From Bacteroidota bacterium (GTDB taxonomy: Bacteria > Bacteroidota > Ignavibacteria > UBA10030 > UBA8401): DNA of 64,000 bases. Below, one piece after another: positions 1 through 8,062 of the stretch. Below the pieces are notes generated by a model. That model searched no databases and was not told where the DNA came from. It saw nothing but the letters and a program-made list of their open reading frames with translations. The DNA lies in NCBI GenBank assembly GCA_021796215.1, contig JAJYOK010000002.1, forward strand, positions 124,001 through 188,000, read 5' to 3'. Each line of letters starts with the position of its first letter. Within the stretch, counting starts at the first letter, position 1. Both the position numbers and the translations under genes were made by a program.

Positions 1-186
1 AACATGCTGCAAAACGCATTTTCCGGTGGACCGTTTCAAAATGTGGTGAATATTATTCAGGATCAAAAACTGACGCCAAACACTTCGCGAATCATGCTGA
101 ACGGAGTTCCGCTTTCATCGCAGGAATTGCAAATTCTGTTGAATCAGAATAAAAATAAAATCAAATCTGTTACTTTTGAAGAATAA
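1..186 (+). CDS. 3' end of an unknown protein gene
   Basis: The frame is open from the first base of the window to a TAA at 184-186, so this is probably the C-terminal part of a gene that starts upstream; an ATG at 4 exists but no ribosome site can be judged. About 61 residues are visible, rich in Asn and Gln and ending in a charged tail. I recognise no domain. It stops 27 bases before the FecR gene and is on the same strand, so it may belong to the same transcription unit. Confidence 0.5.
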   Translation, partial: NMLQNAFSGGPFQNVVNIIQDQKLTPNTSRIMLNGVPLSSQELQILLNQNKNKIKSVTFEE

Positions 187-213
187 TTGCACCGACCTAT
201 TTGGAGAACGCGC

Positions 214-1314
214 ATGAAAAAAATTATACTGTTGTCATTCGTCGTACTGCTTGCAACAGCCCAGAGCATAGCACTGTCGTCTCCCGCTGCTGATTCTAAA
301 AAGCCGATCGCGACAGTCTTCAAACCGGTTGGCACAGTAGAGTATCAAACCGCAGGCAAAGGTTGGACGAAAGCGACGCCGGCAATCCCGTTGTATCCGG
401 GTGATCGTGTACGCACGGCTGAAAATTCTTTCGTCATTATAAAATTTCTCGAAAACTCCATCCTTCGTGTGCAGCAAAAAACTGAGATCACAATCAACGG
501 AGAGATTTCTGCGGACAAGGAATTTTCGAAAAATGTAAACGTGCGGTACGGTCAGCTTGGCTTCAATGTTCAAAAGCATGCAAATGAAAAATTTGAGTTT
601 ACAACACCGACCTCTGTCGCTTCGATTCGCGGAACGCAGGGGGCGTTAACCAGCACAGATAGTTCGTTCCAGCTTATTCTCGGATCGGGTGTTGTCGTCG
701 TGACTAACTTGTTCTCAAATCAAAACATCACTGTGAACGGCGGGCAAATGGCAATTTCGCTCGCTAACGGTCAGCTCAATGTGAAGCAGGCAACGCAGGA
801 AGAGTTGAACCAAATGAACCAGTCAACATCTGGAAACGGCAACGAAGGCGGTCAAGGCAACAACGGCGAAGGCGGACAAAGCAGCGGCTCATCATCTGGT
901 GGAGCAATGACATTCGGCTTCAACGTTACTGCACCTTCCGTTACAGAGGGGCAATCGTTCGATGTGACAGTCGAATTTACTCAGACGTCGGTTCCGCTTG
1001 ACTCTCTGAAATCGCTTGTCTCATATTTTGCTCTTGCTTATAAGGCACCTGCCGCAAGCATATACAAAGAACTGCCGGGCACAATCAGCGGATCGTCGGT
1101 GAAATTCACAATTCCGGAAAGCGATGCGATAGCTCCATCAATTCAAGTCTATGTGATCTTGCGGACTACAACCGGCGTGCAACTCACATATCCTCAGTCG
1201 AATCCAGAGAGCAACCCAATCGTCATCCCGATTCAATCCGCAAATATGAACGAGCTGAAGATTGAGTTTACTGACCCGAGTGGGAAGCGCAAAACAATGG
1301 TTATTGATTATTAA
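214..1314 (+). CDS. FecR-domain exported protein
   Basis: Start chosen at ATG 214, preceded by GGAG at 203-206 and followed at once by a signal peptide (MKK then a hydrophobic stretch to about residue 25); the open frame also allows a TTG at 187, which would place nine residues before the signal. Residues about 35-190 form a FecR domain (PF04773 type: GTV, then PGDRVRT, then a 'SVASIRGTQGA' segment). A Gly/Asn/Ser-rich linker follows near 205-230, then a beta-rich Ig-like domain at about 235-345 that resembles the N-terminus of the next protein. FecR domains act in the periplasm in signal perception or polymer binding. Here there is no neighbouring sigma factor; the partners are a barrel protein and a CHASE2 cyclase. 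The role is inferred from context only. Confidence 0.85.
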   Translation: MKKIILLSFVVLLATAQSIALSSPAADSKKPIATVFKPVGTVEYQTAGKGWTKATPAIPLYPGDRVRTAENSFVIIKFLENSILRVQQKTEITINGEISADKEFSKNVNVRYGQLGFNVQKHANEKFEFTTPTSVASIRGTQGALTSTDSSFQLILGSGVVVVTNLFSNQNITVNGGQMAISLANGQLNVKQATQEELNQMNQSTSGNGNEGGQGNNGEGGQSSGSSSGGAMTFGFNVTAPSVTEGQSFDVTVEFTQTSVPLDSLKSLVSYFALAYKAPAASIYKELPGTISGSSVKFTIPESDAIAPSIQVYVILRTTTGVQLTYPQSNPESNPIVIPIQSANMNELKIEFTDPSGKRKTMVIDY

Positions 1315-1348
1315 CGTATCCGCCGAATCGGCGGCGAAGTTGCTTACA

Positions 1349-1398
1349 CCGCTTGCAATTCTATAATGGTTTTTATAGATTGCAAGCGGTTTTTATTT
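1349..1398 (+). terminator. Intrinsic terminator after the FecR gene
   Basis: Arms at 1349-1365 and 1374-1389 pair almost perfectly (CCGCTTGCAA core, one bulged base) around an 8-base loop and are followed by TTTTTATTT. A smaller hairpin (CCGCC/GGCGG) lies just upstream at 1320-1334. It separates the FecR gene from the barrel gene, so at least part of the transcripts should stop here. Confidence 0.85.
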
Positions 1399-1429
1399 AG
1401 TATCGGTCATTTCTTTCGGGTGCTTCCAT

Positions 1430-3850
1430 ATGTTTTTTGCTAAAAAAGTTCATTCCTTCGCGGCATTATGCTGCGTCATGCTGTTAATTGCGTCAGTTCA
1501 ATCTCACGCACAAATTAACAGTTATATCCGCTCATTGACGACACAGCCTGCAAAAGAAGGGGCAGATTTACAGATTTCTGTATCACTCAATAACACATCG
1601 GATATTGAGCGAGTGTTGTTGTATTACAGATCATTCGGAACGACAGAATACAAAATTTTAGAAATGCCGGTGGACCGCGACTCAGCAAGTGTCACAATTC
1701 CCGCTGCAGATGTTGCTCCTCCGTTCATTGAGTGTTACGTTCTTGCGCAGACAAACTCCGGCAAACAGGAAACATATCCGTACCAAAACGCGCAAACGAT
1801 GCCGACCAGAGTTCCTGTTGAACCGCGCTCACCGAAAGATCAGGAAGTCATCATTCTCAGTCCCGACAGAAACGATTATCTTCTTCCTTCGGATATTTAT
1901 ATTTCTGTTTCGTTAGTCTATGCAACGGATAACATTGATCGTTCACGGACACAGGTATTCTTCGACAATGTTAATGTTTCCAGCAAAGCAGTCATAATGG
2001 GAGATTTGGTTGTTGTATCGGCAAACGGATTGCCTGCAAACATTCCGGCGGGACTTCACACAATCACTGTTAAAGTTTTTGATAAAAAGGGCGTGCTTTA
2101 TCACACACGAACACGTCCGTTCAATGTCATTACCACAGAGGTTGCAAAGGAAATCGGAACGCGCATGATGTACTCTGCCGATGCACAAGCTGAGATACGA
2201 CAGGAAAACATTAAGGGTACCGTTACTGACTACGACAGGCTCGATGCACGCGGAAACGCCCGATACGGAATCTTAAAATCAACTGCGAACCTTCACCTCA
2301 CATCAGAAGAGAAGCCCGATCGCCAGCCTCAAAACAGGTACTTCTTAAGTCTCGACGCACAATATGCGCGGGCAAGTATCGGCGACGCGTATCCGCACTT
2401 ACCTACAACAATTATGGATGGGCGGCGCGTCCGCGGAGTGACATTCGATCTTCTGCTCGGCGCATTCAATATGAATTACGCAACAGGAGAAATTACGCGG
2501 CGCACGGTGCTCGATGACAGCACGCACCAACTTCTCTCCTTCCGCCGTACGCTCACTGCGGTCCGCCCGTATTTCGGAAAAGGTGAAAACTTTCAGCTTG
2601 GCTTTACTTATTTAAAATCCACTGATCAGTACGGTTCAACCGATACAACGAACACGACATTAATGCCGCAGCAAAACGTTGTGTTTGGATCGGACATGCT
2701 CATTGCGTTTGATGATCATCGCGTTGAACTTACCGGGCAAGGCGCCTTCAGCCTGAACAACACGAACATTGCGGCACCGGAATTCACTGACGCGCGTATT
2801 GATTCATCAACAGGATTATCGGACAGCGATAAGAAAACGCTCAAGCAGTTTCTTCCTTATGTCTCAAAGATCATCGCCTTCAATGAAAACCTCCAGCCGC
2901 TGAACCCTGCCGGATTAACATCGCTCGTCTATGAAACCGGCCTTGCCTTGAATTATTTCGGCAACTATTTGAAGGGCACATATGTGTATCACGGGCGCGA
3001 TTACAATTCTGCCGGAACAACAGCGCTCCGCAATGATGTGAAGGGATACAACGTTTTTGACAGGCTTCGGCTTTTGCAGAATAAATTATTCCTTTCCGCG
3101 AGCTACGAACAATTGCAAAACAACACTGCCAATACGGAGATTGCAACAACAACATACGACAACATGCTCACTTCAATTTCTGTTTATCCGGCGAGCAATT
3201 TGCCGAATGTCACGATCGGTTATGGCATCAATAAAAACCATAACCCTATTATCTACGATTCAAGTCTCGCGGGGTACGATTCAACTATTGCCTTGCGCGC
3301 TATCAATGATAGAACAAACCGATACTTCGTTCAGAGCACATACGATTTCACCTCCTCACTGGGCAGACACAATGTAACGCTCAGTATTGATAATGCTGTC
3401 AAAGACGATCAAACACCGAATAATCAGGATGTTAAAAGCTTTAACGGATTTTTTCTGATCAACACTATCCACAGTTTTCCATTGGAAAGCACAATCGGTT
3501 ACTCAATCAGTACTAATTCCATTCCTCAGGTTCAAGTTGCAATAGATACAATCAACGGTGTTCTAACTCCGAAAACTATAACATCTTTTGCTTCGTTGAA
3601 CTATCAAACTGTTACGTTAAACGGGCGTTATCGGCTTATCAGTGATATCTTGAGAATCTCCGCCACATTTGCTCCAACATTCGGCGACTTTAAACGAACA
3701 TTGTATGATGTCAGCCTTCAGTGGACAATTGCACATAATCAAAACGCAATGTTCGAATATCAATACATTGTCAACTCTCCTTCTGCCGCTCAAACGCTGT
3801 CAAGCAGCAACGATTCATTCGTAAGTCTGCTGTATCGTGTGAATTTTTAG
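1430..3850 (+). CDS. Large outer-membrane beta-barrel protein with N-terminal Ig-like domain
   Basis: 806 residues with a signal peptide ending near AHAQ (residue 28). Residues about 36-130 are an Ig-like beta domain that aligns by eye with the C-terminal domain of the preceding FecR protein. A second beta-rich part covers about 135-235. From about 245 on, alternating polar/hydrophobic strands with many aromatic residues run to a C-terminal Phe (VSLLYRVNF), the usual end signature of outer-membrane barrels. No enzymatic motif or TonB box seen. It sits between FecR and a membrane cyclase, so a surface sensor or anchoring role is possible, but no function is assigned. Confidence 0.7.
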   Translation: MFFAKKVHSFAALCCVMLLIASVQSHAQINSYIRSLTTQPAKEGADLQISVSLNNTSDIERVLLYYRSFGTTEYKILEMPVDRDSASVTIPAADVAPPFIECYVLAQTNSGKQETYPYQNAQTMPTRVPVEPRSPKDQEVIILSPDRNDYLLPSDIYISVSLVYATDNIDRSRTQVFFDNVNVSSKAVIMGDLVVVSANGLPANIPAGLHTITVKVFDKKGVLYHTRTRPFNVITTEVAKEIGTRMMYSADAQAEIRQENIKGTVTDYDRLDARGNARYGILKSTANLHLTSEEKPDRQPQNRYFLSLDAQYARASIGDAYPHLPTTIMDGRRVRGVTFDLLLGAFNMNYATGEITRRTVLDDSTHQLLSFRRTLTAVRPYFGKGENFQLGFTYLKSTDQYGSTDTTNTTLMPQQNVVFGSDMLIAFDDHRVELTGQGAFSLNNTNIAAPEFTDARIDSSTGLSDSDKKTLKQFLPYVSKIIAFNENLQPLNPAGLTSLVYETGLALNYFGNYLKGTYVYHGRDYNSAGTTALRNDVKGYNVFDRLRLLQNKLFLSASYEQLQNNTANTEIATTTYDNMLTSISVYPASNLPNVTIGYGINKNHNPIIYDSSLAGYDSTIALRAINDRTNRYFVQSTYDFTSSLGRHNVTLSIDNAVKDDQTPNNQDVKSFNGFFLINTIHSFPLESTIGYSISTNSIPQVQVAIDTINGVLTPKTITSFASLNYQTVTLNGRYRLISDILRISATFAPTFGDFKRTLYDVSLQWTIAHNQNAMFEYQYIVNSPSAAQTLSSSNDSFVSLLYRVNF

Positions 3851-3952: not shown

Positions 3953-6163
3953 ATGGACATAAAAAAGATCCGTTCCGGCACGCAGGCGTGGCTGACGCGC
4001 TTTGTCATCAGTACAGCCATTGCATTCCTTATCATCACCTTTGTTACCGACGCATTTTTTCAGTTTGGTTTCTTTGATCGCTCAAAGCTTTCTTTTATTG
4101 ATAAAGATTTTGCCGCCCGTGGGCCACTTCCGATTCCACGAGATTCGCTTGATGTCGTTCTCGTAACAATTTCCGACAAAACCGATAACACGCTGCCTGA
4201 ACACTTTCCCTATCCGCGAAGTTATTATGCACACGCAATACGAAACTTGAATCGCGCCGGCGTTCGCGCCATCGGCATTGACTTGACATTCGAAGACCCG
4301 GATAAGAAGGGGCTTGCCGGAGACAGCGCATTGTTTAATGCAATTCGCCAATACAAGAATGTTGTTGTCGCAGGCAAAACTGATATTCGCGTTGATGAAG
4401 CGAACATTATACGGCAAGATGAAGATTTTCATTCCATTTTTTATCCCGCTGACAGTTCCGTCGGCATTGTGTACGTTCCAAACGATCAGGATGGAATTTA
4501 CCGACGCTATTGGCCATTCACCAAAGTGCCTGGGCAGAAACGTTATATTCCGACATTCGCATTCGCTTTGTATAATAAATACCTCCATCTCCCGTCCACA
4601 GCAACATGCAAAGACACAACGAATGCTTTTCTTCTTGACAACCACCGCATTCCGAAGTACGATGATGTTTCAATGCTGATCAATTATGTGGGACCGGCCG
4701 GGCAACAAACGTACCGCATATTCGATCTCGCCGATATTCTTGACGACGAAACACTTAAAACAAAAGAAGAGCTTGAATACGGCGTCGACATCAATACCTT
4801 CGACGATCCCGATATAGGCGTATTGCAAAGCGGTGTTCTCAAAAATAAAATCGTCATTATCGGTCCGGCATTTCCGGAATCAAAAGATATTTTCCCGACT
4901 TCAATGGCAATGCCGGGAAATCCCGATGAGAATCTGATGTACGGAATGGAGATCCATGCAAACGCACTTCAGACTTTGTTGAACGGAAACTTTATCGTCT
5001 CATTGCCGTTGAGAGAACGAGTTTTGGTTGCCTGGTTCTTTTCATTGCTGACTTTTTTTATCGTTTCACTGTTGAAGCATATAAAGTTGAAGCACAGTTA
5101 TTTGTTGGAAATTGCTGCCGTGCTTTTCATTGGAATTGAAATTTACGCCATACTCTACTTTTCGGAATACTTTTTTGCAGCGCATCGCACATTAATGCCG
5201 GTTGTTTCTCCGATTGCGGCAGTTTTTGCAAATTATGTCGGCAGCGCAGTGTATCAATATCTCACTGAGCGAAAACAAAAGGTGATGATCAAAGGAATGT
5301 TCAGTCAATATTTGAATCCGACTGTCGTTGACGAGCTGATTGCGCATCCGGAAAAACTCCGCTTAGGCGGCGAACGAAGAGAATTGACTGTGCTCTTCAG
5401 TGATATTGCGGGCTTTACAACTTTTTCGGAAAAACTTCCACCGGAAGAACTTGTTCTTGTGCTCAACGAGTACTTGAGCGCGATGACCGAGATTGTTTTC
5501 AAAAATGACGGCACTCTCGATAAATACGAAGGCGACGCCGTGATGGCGTTCTGGGGCGCCCCTGTTGAATTGGATAATAATGCCCTTCATGCTTGCAACG
5601 CCGCACTCGAAATGCAGGAGCGGCTTGTGATAATCCGGGAGAAATGGAAAAAAGAAGGAAAGCCGGACGTCTTCGTTCGCATCGGTTTAAATACCGGAGA
5701 CATGGTTGTCGGCAACATGGGCGGCACCGGGCGGTTCGATTACACCGTGATTGGTGATAGTGTGAACTTAGGATCACGCCTCGAAGGTGCCAACAAACAG
5801 TACGGCACTTACATCATGGCAAGCGAACGGACGAGAGATCTCGTGAAAGATTTTTTCATTTTCCGCGAGCTTGATCTTCTCATCGTGAAAGGGAAAACAA
5901 AACCGATCACCGTGTTCGAACTTATCGGCAGAAAAAATGACAGCGTTCATCAACAAAAGCTCGATGCTATCGAAGAATACGGCAAGGGCTTAGCATTATA
6001 CCGGCAGAAACGATTTGAAGAGGCGATCGAACAATTCAAAAAAGCGCTAAGTATAAACCCCGACGATCAGCCATCCAAGATTTATATTGAGCGCTCCCAT
6101 TTGTATCTCGCCGCGCCGCCGCCGGATGATTGGAATGGCGTCTTCGTTCTGAAAACCAAATAA
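3953..6163 (+). CDS. CHASE2-domain class III adenylate/guanylate cyclase with C-terminal TPR
   Basis: 736 residues. One N-terminal membrane segment (about 20-40), an extracytoplasmic CHASE2 sensor domain (about 60-350), three membrane helices (about 355-440), a class III cyclase catalytic domain (about 475-655) and a TPR motif (about 675-715). In the cyclase the two metal-binding Asp residues are present (LFSDIAGFT and GDAVMAF), as are the transition-state Asn and Arg (VNLGSRLEG), so it should be active in making a cyclic nucleotide from ATP (or GTP). CHASE2 is an extracytoplasmic input domain of unknown ligand. It lies in line with FecR and barrel genes, suggesting envelope sensing. Confidence 0.93.
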   Translation: MDIKKIRSGTQAWLTRFVISTAIAFLIITFVTDAFFQFGFFDRSKLSFIDKDFAARGPLPIPRDSLDVVLVTISDKTDNTLPEHFPYPRSYYAHAIRNLNRAGVRAIGIDLTFEDPDKKGLAGDSALFNAIRQYKNVVVAGKTDIRVDEANIIRQDEDFHSIFYPADSSVGIVYVPNDQDGIYRRYWPFTKVPGQKRYIPTFAFALYNKYLHLPSTATCKDTTNAFLLDNHRIPKYDDVSMLINYVGPAGQQTYRIFDLADILDDETLKTKEELEYGVDINTFDDPDIGVLQSGVLKNKIVIIGPAFPESKDIFPTSMAMPGNPDENLMYGMEIHANALQTLLNGNFIVSLPLRERVLVAWFFSLLTFFIVSLLKHIKLKHSYLLEIAAVLFIGIEIYAILYFSEYFFAAHRTLMPVVSPIAAVFANYVGSAVYQYLTERKQKVMIKGMFSQYLNPTVVDELIAHPEKLRLGGERRELTVLFSDIAGFTTFSEKLPPEELVLVLNEYLSAMTEIVFKNDGTLDKYEGDAVMAFWGAPVELDNNALHACNAALEMQERLVIIREKWKKEGKPDVFVRIGLNTGDMVVGNMGGTGRFDYTVIGDSVNLGSRLEGANKQYGTYIMASERTRDLVKDFFIFRELDLLIVKGKTKPITVFELIGRKNDSVHQQKLDAIEEYGKGLALYRQKRFEEAIEQFKKALSINPDDQPSKIYIERSHLYLAAPPPDDWNGVFVLKTK

Positions 6164-6827: not shown

Positions 6828-7973
6828 TCACTCTGCGTCCCGGCGATACTTTTCTTCTTCAATGACAAGCCGAAGCGAAATGCGGTGGGAGTTTCCTAAT
6901 TGATCTGCGCCGTTAAACTTTGCAAATGCATAATCAATATCGAGCTTCGGCAAATGCACGCCCGCTCCGAGCGTAAGGTTGCCAATATCGTTCATCCCGA
7001 CACGGAGTGCGGCAATATGTTTGAATTCGTATTCAACGCCGCCGTGCGGATCGAAACTTACCGGACCGACATGCGCCATAGCTGAATACTTTCTGTCCTC
7101 AAAACGAATATCAACATCTACAGCGGGCGCGAACCGTCCTCCTAAAAACTGAAAAGAGTATGCGCCGCCGACTTTGACGGTGGGCGAGATCAACTCGTTC
7201 GTTCCCGTGCTCCACGCGACAAGCGTAGTCGTAACATCCTGAATATTTGCACCCAGCATCAAATTCTCCGAAGCCGCATACAATCCGCCGACATCAAATC
7301 CGATGCCGGTGGCGTAAAAGTCGCCAATAGTTCTCCGAATCAATTTCAGATTTGCGCCCCAATATAAATTTTCCGAATGCTGTTTGGCATATGTGAAATA
7401 AACAGCCCAATCCGCGGCGTTGAAAAAAGTAATCTGACTATAATCCGGCCTGATGTCGGGACCGTCGTTAAAAATACCGTCTCCGTTGATGTCATTCCAT
7501 GCGCTGCGCGTGTCGGGGATGCCATCGATGCCGAGACGAAAGATGCTCACGCCAAAAGACGCCGCATTATATTCAATCTGCTTACTGCTCTCTCCATCTT
7601 GATTCATCGTCGTAGAATCGGTTTGCTGATTCTTCCCGTACGGAAACGCGACAGCCGCATAATCATAATTCACCAGACTGCCGAACTGCTCGTCGTGCAT
7701 CAGCGAAATTTCTGGATACGTAATGCGCGCGAGCCCTGCAGGATTCCAATATCCCGCTGTGACATCGTTCGCCAATGCAACATACGCGCCGCCCATTCCA
7801 AGCGCGCGCCCGCCAACACCGATTGCCATAAACTCTCCGGCATACTTAGCAACTTGAAAACCACCCGCAAATGCTGGCTGAAAATTTGCCGGGACAACGA
7901 GGAAAAGAAGGAACGCCGATGAAATGAGGCTGAAAAAATATTTATTGAAAATCCCTTTGGGAAAGATGTTCAT
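6828..7973 (-). CDS. PorV/PorQ-like outer-membrane protein (UPF0164 type)
   Basis: 381 residues from the ATG at 7973; a longer open frame to 8054 would run through a terminator-like hairpin and put 27 residues before the signal peptide. After the signal (cleavage near AFAGG) comes the family signature: VGGRALGMGGAYVALANDV and then YWNPAGLA, typical of the PorV/UPF0164 14-strand barrels of Bacteroidota and Ignavibacteria. PorV handles T9SS cargo at the outer membrane, but many paralogues of this family exist, so a role in secretion is inference. T9SS-tagged proteins are encoded at 12867 and 30388. Its promoter region is described separately. Confidence 0.85.
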   Translation of the reverse strand: MNIFPKGIFNKYFFSLISSAFLLFLVVPANFQPAFAGGFQVAKYAGEFMAIGVGGRALGMGGAYVALANDVTAGYWNPAGLARITYPEISLMHDEQFGSLVNYDYAAVAFPYGKNQQTDSTTMNQDGESSKQIEYNAASFGVSIFRLGIDGIPDTRSAWNDINGDGIFNDGPDIRPDYSQITFFNAADWAVYFTYAKQHSENLYWGANLKLIRRTIGDFYATGIGFDVGGLYAASENLMLGANIQDVTTTLVAWSTGTNELISPTVKVGGAYSFQFLGGRFAPAVDVDIRFEDRKYSAMAHVGPVSFDPHGGVEYEFKHIAALRVGMNDIGNLTLGAGVHLPKLDIDYAFAKFNGADQLGNSHRISLRLVIEEEKYRRDAE

Positions 7974-7990
7974 AGCATCACCGTAGTCAT

Positions 7991-8024
7991 AAAAAAACCG
8001 AATCTCTCTTCGCGAAATTCGGTT
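7991..8024 (-). terminator. Terminator-like hairpin in the leader of the PorV-like gene
   Basis: On the minus strand AACCGAAT (8024-8017) pairs perfectly with ATTCGGTT (8003-7996), and the stem runs into seven T residues. It ends 18 bases before the ATG at 7973 and lies downstream of the predicted promoter, so it would act as an attenuator. An upstream CTCTCT run can pair with AGAGAG in the hairpin loop, giving a possible competing structure. Confidence 0.65.
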
Positions 8025-8062
8025 CATCTTGTTAGAGAGAAATGAGCATAACACTCAAACAC

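Follow-up and report, generated by a model that had tools for sequence, protein, structure and literature searches.

Homologous Ig-like domains in a FecR-domain protein and the adjacent predicted outer-membrane barrel protein of a conserved FecR–barrel–CHASE2 cyclase cassette

Why should two neighboring proteins with different main domains, a FecR-domain protein and a predicted outer-membrane barrel protein, carry related Ig-like domains? The question is raised by a locus of a Bacteroidota bacterium (class Ignavibacteria) that lies at the beginning of the window, by which we mean the whole 64,000-nucleotide stretch analyzed (assembly GCA_021796215.1, contig JAJYOK010000002.1, positions 124,001 to 188,000). 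An earlier note on this DNA had described the two genes and aligned their domains by eye. Both genes are indeed present, fecR at 214-1314 and the barrel gene at 1430-3850, each on the + strand. FecR is read from an ATG start to give 366 amino acids (375 from an alternative TTG start at 187) and is the sole FecR match in the genome. It begins with a signal peptide, beyond which no membrane helix is predicted in its AF2 model. The FecR domain (PF04773, residues 64-161, 403-696 +; Pfam E 4.4e-10) scores 40.3 bits against a curated cut-off of 24, which places it within the family. It is followed by a low-complexity Gly/Ser/Asn linker (residues 205-226, 826-891 +), with pLDDT below 50 at 208-226, by the Ig-like domain (residues 237-344, 922-1245 +), identified by BLASTP, profiles and the AF2 model, and by a conserved C-terminal tail, NELKIEFTDPSGKRKTMVIDY (1249-1311 +), in which strands are predicted at 347-353 and 359-365 (AF2 model). 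The barrel protein (806 residues) has two N-terminal Ig-like domains. The first, which is the shared domain, was delimited by BLASTP and profiles (residues 28-136, 1511-1837 +) and the second, a beta domain, by the AF2 model (residues 139-242, 1844-2155 +). The predicted beta-barrel itself (residues 247-806, 2168-3847 +) comprises about 24 strands in the AF2 secondary structure and ends in Phe. The protein has no Pfam match and no PHROGs match.

The two genes are embedded in a longer array. Upstream, only the 3' end of a gene for a conserved secreted protein of 384 residues falls within the window (1-186 +; the gene starts outside it, L043:8033-9187), and its stop codon lies 27 bases before fecR. 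Downstream of the barrel gene is a gene for a 736-residue CHASE2–adenylate/guanylate cyclase–TPR protein (3953-6163 +; Pfam CHASE2 E 1e-44, cyclase E 4.7e-23). A PorV/PorQ-family outer-membrane protein gene (6828-8054 −; NCBIfam PorV_fam, over cut-off) is convergent with the cassette, and this convergent gene is retained in most order-level loci. Between fecR and the barrel gene lies a hairpin of 17-18 bp with one bulge, followed by a U-run (1348-1390 +; fold z-score -4.9), which occurs in one place only in the genome and is a probable intrinsic terminator or attenuator. Because of this hairpin and U-run, fecR and the barrel gene may not be transcribed together as one simple operon.

The two Ig-like domains are homologous. 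Pairwise BLASTP of FecR 237-344 against barrel 28-136 gave 29% identity over 97 residues (E 3e-12), and comparison of the full-length proteins gave 33% over 85 residues (E 3e-10), in agreement with the alignment made by eye. Profile–profile alignment, one of three checks that the earlier note had proposed together with structure prediction and a gene-pair co-occurrence search, was decisive. The barrel-domain profile, built from 58 orthologues (58 rows), aligned with the FecR domain of the window's own family, f1 (11 rows), with an hhalign probability of 99.3% (E 1.6e-20), and with the FecR domains of the sister family, f5 (14 rows), with a probability of 99.5% (E 5.8e-23). The same barrel-domain profile found the window FecR domain with a domain E of 4.8e-15 and recovered the Ig domain in every long FecR of 60 neighborhoods, where the only matches beyond long FecRs and barrels were two split barrel genes. 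In the genome-wide profile search the barrel (E 2.5e-38) and FecR (E 1.2e-14) stood out, and the next match had an E value of 0.19; there is thus no third convincing copy in the window's genome. Chance similarity is rejected by the BLASTP result, the profile–profile score and the genome-wide search alike.

The predicted structures agree with this conclusion. The AF2 models of FecR and the barrel protein (mean pLDDT 88.6 and 84.6, respectively) place the same elements in the same sequence in the two domains, seven strands with a three-residue helix ahead of strand five. In FecR these elements span 249-258, 269-277, 285-288, 295-300, helix 302-304, 309-318, 323-326 and 336-341; in barrel Ig domain 1 they span 47-53, 59-68, 75-79, 85-90, helix 92-94, 99-108, 113-116 and 126-131. 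We call the domains Ig-like because the profile of barrel Ig domain 1 matches the solved Ig-superfamily domain of the Porphyromonas peptidylarginine deiminase (PDB 4YT9, 5AK7; E 2e-5). By sequence comparison, the second domain of the barrel protein has no detectable relation to Ig domain 1 or to the FecR domain, and an origin of the FecR domain from this second domain was rejected for lack of a match.

Many secreted proteins of the order have similar Ig domains, with the pattern YYR...G...IP...EYY, and the domain type is thus a common one. The Ig domain of FecR might accordingly have been recruited independently from this pool, such that its likeness to the barrel domain would say nothing about contact between the two proteins; the f1 and f5 copies are, moreover, not firmly grouped in a wider Ig tree of 129 domains. 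We consider this origin distinctly unlikely, since in that same tree a branch with support of 98/91 sets the FecR and barrel copies together apart from 19 further Ig domains of the order, a separation weakened a little by the choice of outgroup, which was selected for its similarity to the barrel domain and so is not fully independent. The window's own genome, too, contains no other good match.

The genes for FecR, the Ig-barrel and the CHASE2 cyclase form a widely conserved cassette. In an order-level sample of 60 neighborhoods, 54 had room on the contig for an upstream gene, and in all 54 fecR lay directly upstream of the barrel gene; the cyclase gene was downstream of the barrel gene in 58 of the 60. 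At the class level (n = 20), FecR was present in every neighborhood and the cyclase in 18. Among 20 stretches fetched from other classes of the phylum, 11 contained the full trio and 7 had a barrel with neither FecR nor cyclase, the remaining 2 being a partial barrel lacking Ig and one further stretch of the same genome. The families with an Ig-barrel not flanked by FecR or cyclase are those of L172, L173, L174, L176, L178, L180 and L181. Homologues of the secreted protein of about 384 residues were found upstream of FecR in 43 of the 60 order-level loci and, at the class level, in some of the loci too. A second CHASE2 cyclase of the window's genome (L194, G000:C18:50008-51033) lies beside a caspase-like protein and another secreted protein, and there was no FecR or barrel within the 4 kb read.

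The usual FecR of these cassettes, at the order level, at the class level and in other classes, is a short protein of about 225-270 residues that lacks the Ig domain. Among the loci surveyed, the Ig-bearing form is confined to two sister families, f1 and f5, in which the Ig domain follows the FecR domain and precedes the conserved C-terminal tail. As the tail is the same in short and long FecRs (for example, NELKLELRDPQGNKKELKLRYQ compared with NELKIEFTDPSGKRKTMVIDY), the Ig domain was inserted internally rather than appended at the end. In some members of f5 the domain is present three times in tandem, and L092, L093 and L163 encode FecR proteins of about 565 residues with three tandem Ig-like domains. 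The sister relationship of f1 and f5 is supported (SH-aLRT 92) in a tree of the barrel minus Ig domain 1, and on this tree the presence or absence of Ig in FecR requires three changes. Most simply, these represent one gain in the f1/f5 ancestor and two losses, which is the best-fitting history. In the order-level Ig tree every FecR copy falls on one side of a branch with support of 97/95. The FecR copies do not form one group in the wider tree, yet constraining them to do so was not rejected (p 0.29). Recent domain copying inside family f5 was rejected by the AU test (p 0.0024); for copying inside family f1 the AU test does not reject (p 0.28). The source of the FecR Ig domain was most simply a domain related to barrel Ig domain 1, and in the simplest case a copy of it.

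What, then, might the inserted domain do? We favor, at about an even chance for the explanation as a whole, a trans-envelope cyclic-nucleotide sensing cassette in which the FecR Ig domain is a barrel-docking module. The barrel, in the outer membrane, would detect an outside signal, with its N-terminal Ig domains hanging into the periplasm; the soluble periplasmic FecR would relay the state of the barrel, and the CHASE2 cyclase, placed in the inner membrane, would make cAMP (or cGMP). We infer this topology and direction of signaling. In the f1/f5 ancestor, a domain related to barrel Ig domain 1 would have been inserted into FecR ahead of its tail, where it would most likely tether FecR to the periplasmic domains of the barrel, in the manner of the STN pairs of PupR/PupB and FoxR/FoxA. 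It is because of this STN–STN analogy that docking is favored, and direct binding of FecR to the barrel through the Ig domains is plausible. The earlier note had suggested that the two proteins bind each other or the same ligand. A functional link between FecR and the barrel is supported by synteny in several classes and by the fusion of the two in NsrA, described below.

The second part of that suggestion, a common ligand, fares less well. Both Ig domains could share one ligand, small or polymeric, such as a cell-wall fragment, so that FecR and the barrel would compete for it or be bridged by it. Homologous domains are, after all, present in two envelope proteins, and related Ig folds bind varied partners. 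This is nevertheless very improbable. Four residues that the barrel copy conserves at more than 90%, F69, G70, E78 and M79, have mostly disappeared from the f1 FecR copies, and Pfam and profile searches of the domains gave no match to known ligand-binding families.

The loss of these residues also bears on the main rival to docking, in which the Ig domain of FecR acts passively, as a spacer or stabilizer that lets FecR reach further between barrel and cyclase and makes no specific contact with the barrel Ig domain. Such a role, which we regard as possible but unlikely, fits the insertion of the domain between a flexible Gly/Ser-rich linker and the conserved tail, its copy number of none to three in tandem, and, on the most parsimonious history, a minimum of two losses, as well as the failure of the FecR copies to retain what is most conserved in the barrel copy. 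It also fits the coevolution analysis. Distance matrices revealed no coevolution specific to the two Ig domains: their partial correlation (r 0.36-0.42) was not above that of most other domain pairs, and although the Mantel p values for the Ig pair were 0.001-0.012, several other domain pairs correlate as strongly or more so. On the other hand, any domain would serve as a spacer, yet the one in FecR belongs to the same subgroup as the Ig domain of its neighbor, which would then be a coincidence, and the tree favors one retained origin.

Docking by the Ig domain, to return to the favored explanation, has the same two findings against it, the lost residues and the lack of a coevolution signal particular to the Ig pair. 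The FecR Ig copy is absent from most cassettes and is therefore dispensable to the general mechanism; as most homologous cassettes lack it, Ig–Ig contact cannot be the general signaling step. Against the favored explanation also stands the probable terminator that separates fecR from the barrel gene. A broader proposition, that the Ig-barrel, FecR and CHASE2 cyclase form a relay widespread in the phylum and that one lineage evolved Ig–Ig docking by copying the N-terminal domain of the receptor into the regulator, convergently with the STN–STN pairs of siderophore signaling, is one that we advance tentatively and at less than an even chance. Were the Ig domains to dock, a regulator given a copy of a receptor domain would have arisen twice, with unrelated folds (Ig and STN). 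Sister genera with and without the Ig domain in FecR provide a natural comparison that is already at hand, and across much of the phylum the cassette names two candidate upstream partners for CHASE2 sensing, FecR and an outer-membrane barrel.

Both the pairing principle and the association of FecR, barrel and CHASE2 are already known in other forms. In this respect the earlier note, which knew of no described pairing of this kind, was mistaken in principle. In PupR/PupB, a crystal structure shows the C-terminal STN subdomain of the regulator bound to its homologue, the N-terminal STN domain of the barrel (PMC7186176); in FoxR/FoxA, too, regulator and bound barrel carry homologous STN domains, C-terminal in the regulator and N-terminal in the barrel (PMC11637429). 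As in the window, PupR and FoxR place the barrel-homologous C-terminal domain after a beta-solenoid FecR part. These systems, however, consist of STN domains, a TonB-dependent transducer, a membrane anti-sigma factor and a sigma factor, whereas the window has Ig domains, a barrel in which neither plug nor STN domain was detected, a soluble FecR and a cyclase. A profile match search of the 58 barrels yielded no STN or plug domain, and a TonB-dependent transducer with an STN domain was rejected as an identity for the barrel on the lack of any STN match among them. Indeed, of the features of FecI/FecR/FecA cell-surface signaling, the locus shows no STN domain, TonB plug, anti-sigma domain or FecR membrane helix: the window FecR has only FecR-type Pfam matches, and the sole membrane-like helix in its model is the signal peptide. 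The Ig version of the regulator/barrel domain pairing appears to be new, as neither the split, Ig-bearing version nor the lineage-specific insertion was found in the open-licence literature searched.

Other known systems share parts of the arrangement. The Ig domain of the Porphyromonas peptidylarginine deiminase is part of a secreted enzyme and has no FecR or barrel context. A Burkholderia operon encodes, like the window, a FecR-domain periplasmic protein beside a CHASE2 sensor, in this case a FecR-LysM protein and a CHASE2 histidine kinase (PMC5192318), and differs in its histidine kinase output, its LysM domain and its lack of a barrel. In Campylobacterota, a FecR-domain outer-membrane protein is encoded in a cluster with a CHASE2 cyclase that adjoins it; that cluster, compared here by its description, also has a phosphodiesterase and a TPR protein (PMC9239204).

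The nearest characterized system is NsrA–CyaK of Sinorhizobium meliloti. Both NsrA and CyaK are required to perceive an outside signal (PMC7529298; PMC13001267). As read from the pSymB DNA and later papers, NsrA combines in a single polypeptide a FecR domain (Pfam E 2.3e-15), TPRs and, as its C-terminal half, a region assigned as an outer-membrane barrel (PMC7529298), and the stop codon of nsrA overlaps the start of the CHASE2 cyclase gene cyaK. Profiles of the FecR and the cyclase of the window find NsrA (E 1.3e-13) and CyaK (E 5.5e-112), respectively. The window barrel profile found no match in NsrA, even with filters off, nor did the Ig domain, and kinship of the barrel sequences is therefore not part of the resemblance. 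As in NsrA–CyaK, a FecR domain, an outer-membrane barrel and a CHASE2 cyclase come from adjacent genes, with the cyclase gene adjoining the barrel gene. Unlike NsrA, in which FecR and barrel are joined in one protein via TPRs, the window has FecR and barrel in two separate genes, with Ig domains replacing the TPRs. The fusion of FecR and barrel in one lineage and their proximity in another is a classical sign of interaction, although no sequence match links the two barrels, and NsrA gives independent support for the trio. By its architecture, the window locus looks like a split version of NsrA–CyaK.
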